From: Phycisphaerales bacterium
GTDB taxonomy: Bacteria > Planctomycetota > Phycisphaerae > Sedimentisphaerales > Anaerobacaceae
NCBI GenBank assembly: GCA_020343675.1
Contig: CP070806.1
Coordinates: 4,624,891-4,660,742 of the forward strand
Direction of reading: 5' to 3'
Length of the DNA: 35,852 nucleotides
The notes beneath the pieces are model-generated. The model was not told where the DNA came from. It did not search any database and saw nothing but the letters and a program-made list of their open reading frames with translations. Position 1 is the stretch's first letter; each line of letters opens with the position of its first letter. Below, in pieces: positions 31,482 to 33,528 of this stretch. The position numbers were made by a program, and so were the translations under genes.

Positions 31482-31778
31482 ATTTTAGCTGAGAGCAGAT
31501 CGTCCTTGTACTTAAGCGGAAATCCTGGCTAAGGGCACGCACAACCCGCCGCCGCTTTTATGCGCGCTTCCATTAATGGCCGATTGCCACAAAGGTAAAC
31601 CGGGATTTAACATATATCTTTATAATCGGCAATCCTGCACGCTACAACACATTATACTACCCGAATTGTTTGGATCATTTCAACCTCCTTGGCGGTTCAA
31701 TTGCCCAAATCATGACGAATGCCCTCAAGTATAACATTTTGGCACTTTTCCGATTTCCGACGCACCTCGACCAGATTG
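31482..31778. other. Intergenic region upstream of the cyanophycinase-like gene
   Basis: This holds the candidate minus-strand promoter described separately and an inverted repeat GATTGCC (31582-31588) / GGCAATC (31628-31634) that overlaps it. I see no gene in it. Confidence 0.4.
31619..31647 (-). promoter_or_regulatory. Candidate promoter of the cyanophycinase-like gene
   Basis: On the minus strand TTGTAG (complement of 31642-31647) and TATAAA (complement of 31619-31624) are 17 bp apart, 138 bp before the start codon. Confidence 0.4.
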
Positions 31779-31919
31779 TAGGGTGTGCAAAATCCTTTTT
31801 TTGCACACGCGGCGAAAGTGCTTATGATGGGGCCAATCCGGGATAGAGTGAGCGGCGCATTTGTTGGGCAATAGACCCGCGTGTGCAACAAGTCCCGCAG
31901 GGACAAGTTGCACACCCTA
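31779..31919. repeat. 141-bp nested palindrome, MITE- or REP-like element
   Basis: The outer arms are TAGGGTGTGCAA (31779-31790) and TTGCACACCCTA (31908-31919), perfect 12-bp inverted repeats ending in TA. A second perfect pair lies inside: TTGCACACGCGG (31801-31812) and CCGCGTGTGCAA (31877-31888). Each half also folds on itself. The left half is GTGTGCAAAA (31783-31792), 6-nt loop, TTTTGCACAC (31799-31808). The right half is GTGTGCAAC-aa-GTCCC-gca-GGGAC-aa-GTTGCACAC (31881-31915). The TA ends are compatible with an IS630/mariner-type non-autonomous element, but no transposase of that kind is present. It has no convincing coding frame. Confidence 0.75.
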
Positions 31920-31933
31920 TTCATGAAAGGCTG

Positions 31934-32282
31934 CCTGCTGTCAAATACTACCTTTTGCTTTTTTCATCTTTTGTTTTCTTCAGAGAACCTTTGACCGTGC
32001 AACGACTTATCCATCCTTATAGTTCCTTTACAGCCGGTCCTGTTCGTTCAGACGCGGATTGCTCCTCACGGCCAACCGGCGCACCGGCCGTGAGCGGTCT
32101 GCCATTGAACAGCCATCTTTTGTCCGTTACTTTCTTGCTCGTTCGTACACCGGAGCAGGGCTCGGTTCGGCCCACCTATTCATTTGTTCCCATGCGCTTT
32201 GTCATGTCTGCCGCCGAGTAGGCGGCGGCCACATGATCTGGTCCGGTGCGGGCGGCCCACATACCAAGAGGTCTCTCTGCCC
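31934..32282 (-). ncRNA. Candidate bridge-RNA region of the IS110-type element
   Basis: This non-coding stretch lies between the transposase stop and the distal inverted repeat, where IS1111-subgroup elements carry their bridge RNA. Two clear hairpins are present: CTCACGGCC / GGCCGTGAG (32065-32094) and CATGT-ct-GCCGCC-gagta-GGCGGC-ggcc-ACATG (32203-32235). The target- and donor-binding loops cannot be assigned without alignment, and transcription is not shown. Confidence 0.4.
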
Positions 32283-33437
32283 TCAGGCCTGGACCATAGG
32301 GTGCAAGAGCTGGCCCGTTCCCGAACGAGATTTCTTCTTAGGCTTCCTGCGGCCGGGACGCACAGGAGCCGTCTGTTGGTAATCCACGCCCTTGGCCCAG
32401 ACCGCATACACGACCTTGACCAGTTCGCGAGCCACTTTGATGTAGCCACGGCTGCGATCTTTCCGGCCGCCATCGGTTGCCCGGTCAAACAGAGTACGCC
32501 ATTTGCCCCCGGAACGCACCGCGCCGTGAGCCGCCTCGATAAAGGCCCATTTAAGGGTCTTGTTGCCTCGCAGACCAAGGTGGCGGCCCTGGGGAGAGTG
32601 CCTTGGATCCTCCTGGCCCGTGTCGTCTGCACGAGGGGCCAGAAGACTGTAAGAGGCCAACGCCTTGTGGTTCTTGAACCGCTCAATCCTGCCAATCTCG
32701 GCCGCCAGAACGTGAGCGAGGATTAAGCCGATGCCCGGAATCGTTTTCAGACGCATCGTCAATGGCGTGGCCGCCAGTTGGCGATGAAGGGTTCGAGCCA
32801 CATCGGCCAGTTGGCGGCGAAGATGCTCAAGAAGCTTCACCTGTCCACGCAAAGCCAGCAACGCCTGAGTAGGCAACTGGACAGGATTATACAAACAAAG
32901 CTCGACGAGGAACTTGCGTCCGTGGGCCCCGAACAAGTCGGAGAATTCGTGGAATATCCCATGACGATGGAAAATAGCATGAATGCGGTTCTTGACCATG
33001 CTCTGCAATCCGACCAAGTCCCCGCGAAACCGCATCTGCTCCCGCTGATTGCGGACCTCCGGCGGGGCTCGCCAGACCTTCCACCAGTCGGAGGACTCGA
33101 ACGGAAGCAACGAGACCAGGTCCGCGTCTTTTTTGTTGGTCTTGACCCAACCGCGTGCTTTACGCATCTGCTCGAGCTTGAAGCAGTTGGACAAATGAAC
33201 CTCCAAGCCCGCAGCTTCCATCAGGTCGCTAAGCCAGCCCCATCCGAACGACGCTTCCATCACCACCGGGATGCCCGCCGGCCACTGACCCAGACGCTGC
33301 CGCAACTGCTGGCGGTCCGGATGATCCAGCCGCTGACGAGAAACAACGATACCTCCGGCGTCGCGAAAGGTTACGTTGCTGAATTTGTAGTGGACATCCA
33401 TGCCGGCACACGCTACTTTTGATGTTATCTTTTTCAT
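32283..33437 (-). CDS. IS110-family transposase (DEDD type)
   Basis: The 384-residue protein has the RuvC-like N-terminal domain (CAGMDVHYKFSNVTF with Asp14, VVMEASFGWGW with Glu61, GWVKTNKKDADLVSLLPF with Asp104) and the C-terminal Transposase_20 domain (LKTIPGIGLILAHVLAAEIGRIERF, ALASYSLLAPRADDTG, LRGNKTLKWAFIEAAHGAVR). These enzymes act with a bridge RNA to join donor and target DNA. The position of the third acid of the tetrad is Asn101, and the segment where many relatives have a Ser-Gly has Thr-Gly, so activity is uncertain or the subgroup differs. AAAGGAGAT lies just before the ATG. A long basic C-terminus (RPGRRKPKKKSRSG) is present; the frame is intact. Confidence 0.95.
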   Translation of the reverse strand: MKKITSKVACAGMDVHYKFSNVTFRDAGGIVVSRQRLDHPDRQQLRQRLGQWPAGIPVVMEASFGWGWLSDLMEAAGLEVHLSNCFKLEQMRKARGWVKTNKKDADLVSLLPFESSDWWKVWRAPPEVRNQREQMRFRGDLVGLQSMVKNRIHAIFHRHGIFHEFSDLFGAHGRKFLVELCLYNPVQLPTQALLALRGQVKLLEHLRRQLADVARTLHRQLAATPLTMRLKTIPGIGLILAHVLAAEIGRIERFKNHKALASYSLLAPRADDTGQEDPRHSPQGRHLGLRGNKTLKWAFIEAAHGAVRSGGKWRTLFDRATDGGRKDRSRGYIKVARELVKVVYAVWAKGVDYQQTAPVRPGRRKPKKKSRSGTGQLLHPMVQA

Positions 33438-33528
33438 GGCTATCTCCTTTCTTTGGCCTCTATCCTAATTAGACCAAACGATGGGAGACAGCCTTTCATG
33501 AGATTACCGTCCTGTCTCAAAAGACGAA

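Follow-up and report, generated by a model that had tools for sequence, protein, structure and literature searches.

The 35.8-kb window, i.e., the whole stretch of DNA that was analyzed, carries a 141-bp intergenic element at positions 31779-31919, which is adjoined on its right by an IS1111-type insertion sequence of the IS110 family (Table 1). The element is built of an outer pair, TAGGGTGTGCAA (31779-31790) and TTGCACACCCTA (31908-31919), and an inner pair, TTGCACACGCGG (31801-31812) and CCGCGTGTGCAA (31877-31888), each of which is a perfect 12-bp inverted repeat, and each half possesses hairpin arms of its own. Four GTGTGCAA cores are present, all inside 133 bp of the element, and they are the sole ones in the window, for which 1.3 would be expected by chance. 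An earlier sequence-only reading of this DNA had described two nested perfect 12-bp inverted pairs, a separate hairpin in each half and four copies of the core, all of which were found. Compared with shuffled sequence, the whole element folds strongly both as DNA (z = -4.6) and as RNA (z = -5.0), and strong RNA folding was seen on both of its strands (z = -5.0 and -4.5).

Table 1. Features of the element and of the adjoining insertion sequence (positions in the window).
Feature	Position	Strand	Description
REP 1	31778..31812	+	GTAGGGTGTGCAAAATCCTTTTTTTGCACACGCGG: GTAG foot, stem, AAA-type loop, CGCGG tail; covariance model E 5.6e-11, exact pattern match
Spacer	31813..31876	+	64 nt, apparent relic of both RAYT gene ends; two-end anchored alignment to L157, L160
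Residual reading frame	31824..31874	+	MMGPIRDRVSGAFVGQ (stop); putative RAYT start leader plus C-terminus, stop 2 nt before REP 2
REP 2	31877..31919	-	(G)TAGGGTGTGCAACTTGTCCCTGCGGGACTTGTTGCACACGCGG: AAC-type loop, lengthened stem; covariance model E 2.4e-10
IS1111-type element	31920..33506	-	inserted at TA of REP 2 GTAG foot; TA at 31918-31919 and 33505-33506
IS110-family DEDD transposase, 384 aa	32283..33437	-	NF033542 158 bits (cut-off 140); PF02371, PF01548
Candidate guide ATGAATAGGTGGGCC	32169..32183	-	IS non-coding region; resembles IS-REP junction ATGAATAGGRTGGGC

At its full length, the element has one copy in its own 5.06-Mb genome, and the whole-element search returned no further 141-bp copy, whether there or among 397 genomes belonging to the class. 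Its halves recur independently in the own genome: BLAST matched them 49 times at E <= 10, with E < 2e-4 for the top 15, and 19 hairpins of the form GTGTGCAA-n-TTGCACAC were counted, compared with none for the reversed-pattern control. Single-copy occurrence, which the sequence-only reading had named as the result that would speak against its proposal of a MITE or paired REP elements, therefore holds for the full 141 bp and fails for its units, which recur across the genome.

Both halves are copies of a dispersed repeat, GTAGGRTG-stem-loop-YGCGG, which was detected in 22 of the 60 genomes searched, the own genome being counted among the 22. A covariance model recovered 51 units at E <= 0.01 in the own planctomycete genome, and the surroundings of the copies are unrelated to each other. 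The copies read out as one asymmetric unit, GTAGGGTGTGCAA-loop-TTGCACACGCGG, with sister stems in which one T-A pair is changed to G-C (GTAGGGTGGGCAA..TTGCCCACGCGG) or which start with GTAGGATGGGCA; single halves elsewhere retain the asymmetric ends, i.e., the GTAG foot and the CGCGG tail. When the variable stem positions were left unconstrained in the search pattern, stem covariation scored 0.380 versus 0.138 in shuffles, including 29 double changes at four stem pairs and 98.5% of cells paired, and controls with slid partners were close to zero. TAGG is invariant in the alignment of 22 units, and GTAG was read at the loci. The long stem of REP 2 is likewise present in copies elsewhere in the own genome, and the first letter of its GTAG foot, G, is now found at 33507, past the IS. 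As a GTAG-ended dispersed palindrome with compensatory stem changes and RAYT association (see below), the repeat is a GTAG-type REP, and the element, for which the earlier reading knew no matching family, fits the GTAG-tagged REP superfamily (PMC3733652).

Two further observations concern single copies. The REP of the window's type at G000:C1:4376461-4376513 contains CCCGTTCGGCTACGCTCGGGGCGTG in its loop, unlike the other loops, which is possibly another small insertion. In addition, 31692-31708 (GCGGTTCAATTGCCCAA) forms a 17-nt inverted match (88%) with 31864-31880 at the boundary of spacer and REP 2; a further REP, since decayed, may have left its tail and spacer end there, upstream of the element.

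REPs within 150 bp of each other form eight pairs in the own genome, versus 0.08 expected, and seven of the eight are tail-to-tail, so that inverted REPs with a short spacer are over-represented, as is characteristic of REPINs. Most pairs, both here and in another genome (G007), combine one AAC-type loop with one AAA-type loop. The other own pairs have spacers of 7-31 nt with no evident reading frame, among which the 27-31-nt spacers of four pairs appear by eye to be related, as copying of whole pairs would lead one to expect. For the pair in the window, no empty site was found. The element is almost certainly an inverted pair of REPs (a REPIN, or two-REP BIME), and the "paired REP elements" suggested by the sequence-only reading were borne out by these GTAG-foot/CGCGG-tail units in inverted orientation.

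The search for a RAYT gene, which that reading had recommended alongside one for an IS630 transposase, proved to be directed at the correct enzyme. The own genome possesses a RAYT at G000:4371718-4372311 (NF047646, 191 bits, cut-off 80), which is flanked on both sides by sister REPs, GTAGGATGGGCA..TGCCCATGCGG, in inverted orientation. Elsewhere in Planctomycetota, genes of the same RAYT clade lie between precisely the two REP types of the window, oriented as they are there. In Planctomycetes bacterium B3_Pla (L160) and Phycisphaerae BS750m-G58 (L157), the upstream REP is of the AAAATTCATTTT type (+) and the downstream REP of the AACTTGTT or AACTCGTT type (-), which is the arrangement of the window with a gene in the middle; the window's REP type also occurs at a third RAYT locus, L156. 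Of the approximately 100 RAYT loci listed, some of which are one locus fetched twice, most are flanked by a GTAG hairpin on at least one side, the stems varying between loci. The nearest RAYTs come mostly from Phycisphaerae and relatives, and on this ground the organism is taken to be a planctomycete. In the own genome, the assembly of which is gapped and estimated to be 82% complete, no RAYT bearing precisely the REP type of the window was found. A second RAYT-like gene in this genome (G000:C1:3992383-3992901, L107) was rejected as the cognate, because the REP-like hairpin beside it is a different one, GTAGGGTGCGATGAATCGCACC. Runs of N, each exactly 100 long and resembling scaffold gaps, were noted at L008 (1312-1411), L015 (1575-1674) and L053 (1401-1500), and one such run adjoins the second IS junction described below, so the one-contig genome is not gap-free.

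The insertion sequence to the right shows the features of the IS1111 group, namely a DEDD transposase, subterminal inverted repeats (ATGAAAGGCTG) near both ends of 31920-33506 with TAATCTC and GAA, i.e., 7-bp and 3-bp extensions, outside them, and approximately 360 nt of non-coding DNA downstream of the transposase gene. At the REP 2 foot, the window reads TAGGG after ATGAA, where GTAG would be due, and joining the window flanks at TA gives GGACGGTAGGGTGTGCAA with an intact GTAG foot. A 75%-identical IS in another genus (G007:C494) has the same right junction at a REP, its joined flanks restoring GTAGGATGGGC, and the same right junction at a REP was found at a second site in the own genome (G000:1181394), whose other end falls in an assembly gap. 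The right junctions are thus identical at three REPs in two genera, and the left end of the IS in a further genome (G013) again reads G-TA. The candidate guide ATGAATAGGTGGGCC lies within a stretch that is fully conserved in the 75%-identical element, and, as far as sequence can tell, it may be part of a guide RNA. The transposase also matched a TIGR-Tas endonuclease model weakly (30 bits, cut-off 100), probably owing to a shared domain.

These results bear on the identity of the element as a whole. The sequence-only reading had noted TA at its ends, and TA does stand at both; however, each of the two is part of the GTAG foot of its REP, and the IS1111-type insertion adjoins the one on the right. 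With perfect outer arms between these TAs, the element could be taken for a MITE of an IS630/Tc1-type transposon, with the 12-bp arms as terminal inverted repeats and TA as the target duplication. This would require the duplication to lie outside the terminal repeats, whereas the TA on the right lies within GTAG and forms a junction with the IS, the whole element is single-copy with halves that recur independently, lone halves keep asymmetric GTAG/CGCGG ends, and such halves flank RAYT genes. We consider a MITE origin scarcely credible; REP asymmetry and the IS junctions led us to reject the TA-duplication reading, and what had been suggested to be a MITE is two asymmetric REPs facing inversely rather than one unit bounded by terminal inverted repeats. 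The intergenic position and the strong RNA fold on both strands would also suit a structured RNA or a terminator acting in cis on neighbouring genes, but the Rfam search and the terminator scan of the element returned nothing, the copies lie in unrelated surroundings, and the repeat is associated with RAYTs. Such a function is very improbable as the identity of the element, although it may have a side role in transcription.

What distinguishes the pair in the window is its spacer, which appears to retain both ends of a RAYT gene. The spacer start, CGAAAGTGCTTATGATG, corresponds to GAGAAACGCCTATGATG, which follows the upstream REP of L157. The spacer ends in GCATTTGTTGGGCAATAG-AC, which CCGCG follows; its counterpart at these RAYT loci is the sequence for the C-terminus and stop, GTTTTCGTTGGCGAATAA-AT in L160 and ATTTTTGTCGGCGAGTAA-AT in L157. 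The encoded C-termini are ...FVGQ-stop in the window versus ...RIGDVFVGE-stop (L160) and ...RIGDIFVGE-stop (L157), and the gap from stop to REP is 2 nt in all three. When the alignment was anchored at the two REPs and allowed a single free internal jump, the spacer scored 20 against each locus, compared with averages of 9.8 ± 1.3 and 9.7 ± 1.2 (maxima 18 and 16) in dinucleotide shuffles, none of 1000 being as high. When 69 REP-RAYT-REP loci were ranked with slightly different anchoring and 60 shuffles, L160 and L157 took the first two ranks with a score of 19, while the next locus scored 12. Moreover, a copy in the own genome (G000:3993728) matches element positions 82-115, i.e., the REP with the same spacer end. 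A plain local alignment between spacer and RAYT loci did not reach significance, and the relic claim, which comprises approximately 35 aligned nt, therefore rests on the two-end model. This, together with the short, frameless spacers of the other own pairs, would agree with ordinary intergenic or transposition-signal sequence between the REPs and no RAYT relic, as sub-terminal sequence kept for transposition could yield the same signal. Against this stand the shuffles, the top ranks of both REP-matched loci among the 69, and the in-frame FVGQ-stop with its equal 2-nt gap, which make a spacer without a relic a tentative alternative that we do not favour. On balance, the element is probably an internally deleted REP-RAYT-REP unit from which the middle of the gene was lost, and it would rank, with similar likelihood, as a fossil of the passage from a REP-RAYT-REP transposon to a stripped-down REPIN.

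Taken together, the locus is very likely best explained as a REPIN of two facing GTAG REPs, most likely derived from a REP-RAYT-REP unit by deletion, with an IS1111-type element inserted later in its right foot. Its history would have begun when a REP-RAYT-REP unit lost the transposase gene between its REPs, leaving two GTAG REP hairpins facing each other. Judging from other RAYTs (PMC8266576, PMC3116915), the RAYT, a Y1/HUH transposase, would bind the single-stranded hairpin with its GTAG foot, cleave beside it and, as we infer by analogy, mobilize the non-autonomous REP pair in trans. Later, the IS1111-type element entered the GTAG foot of the right REP at its TA, presumably guided by an RNA from its own right end, and thereby created the present right boundary of the REP pair.

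The element represents a known kind, a REPIN/BIME of GTAG REPs, of which it is a well-made example, and its apparent RAYT relic is the informative part. The origin of REPINs was left open by previous work, in which REPs flanking an IS200-like ancestor were one possibility (PMC3116915). If true, the relic would be direct evidence, at the sequence level, that REPINs can originate from deletion inside a RAYT gene, as MITEs do from their parent transposons, and a spacer with both RAYT ends would directly support such a MITE-like birth; a systematic search for other relics of this kind is suggested. Furthermore, two mobile systems are stacked at this site, the REP pair serving as the landing site of an IS110-family element whose insertion point at REPs is the same in two genera.

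Similar to the REPINs described as hairpin-forming REP doublets (Bertels and Rainey 2011, PMC3116915), the element consists of two inverted REPs with a short spacer and nested folding, and its kind is over-represented and linked to a RAYT. Unlike them, its two REPs differ in loop type, and its spacer appears to bear both RAYT gene ends. GTAG-tagged REPs, of which 24 families were published, have been reported in Planctomycetes (PMC3733652), and the window's REPs share with this superfamily and with the BIMEs of E. coli (PMC8266576) the GTAG foot, a stem of 6-13 bp and a variable loop. The y-z BIME pairs of E. coli also combine units of different subtype (PMC8266576), as does the AAC and AAA pair of the window. 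The CGCGG tail and the GTG(T/G)GCAA stem set the window's REPs apart, a comparison drawn with the superfamily and E. coli BIMEs rather than with the 24 published consensuses. As for the insertion sequence, the IS1111 group is characterized by subterminal inverted repeats of 11-13 bp, 7-bp and 3-bp extensions and a downstream non-coding region (PMC11187229), and REP targeting is known in the IS110 family for ISPa11 (PMC11187229), IS621 (PMC11208160) and ISPpu9 (PMC8450116), with a survey in PMC1525189. The element in the window shares a fixed insertion place in a REP with all three, and the long downstream non-coding end and subterminal inverted repeats with ISPa11, a member of the IS1111 group; it differs from them in that it inserts at TA within a GTAG foot, in a REP of a planctomycete, and its guide RNA is putative.
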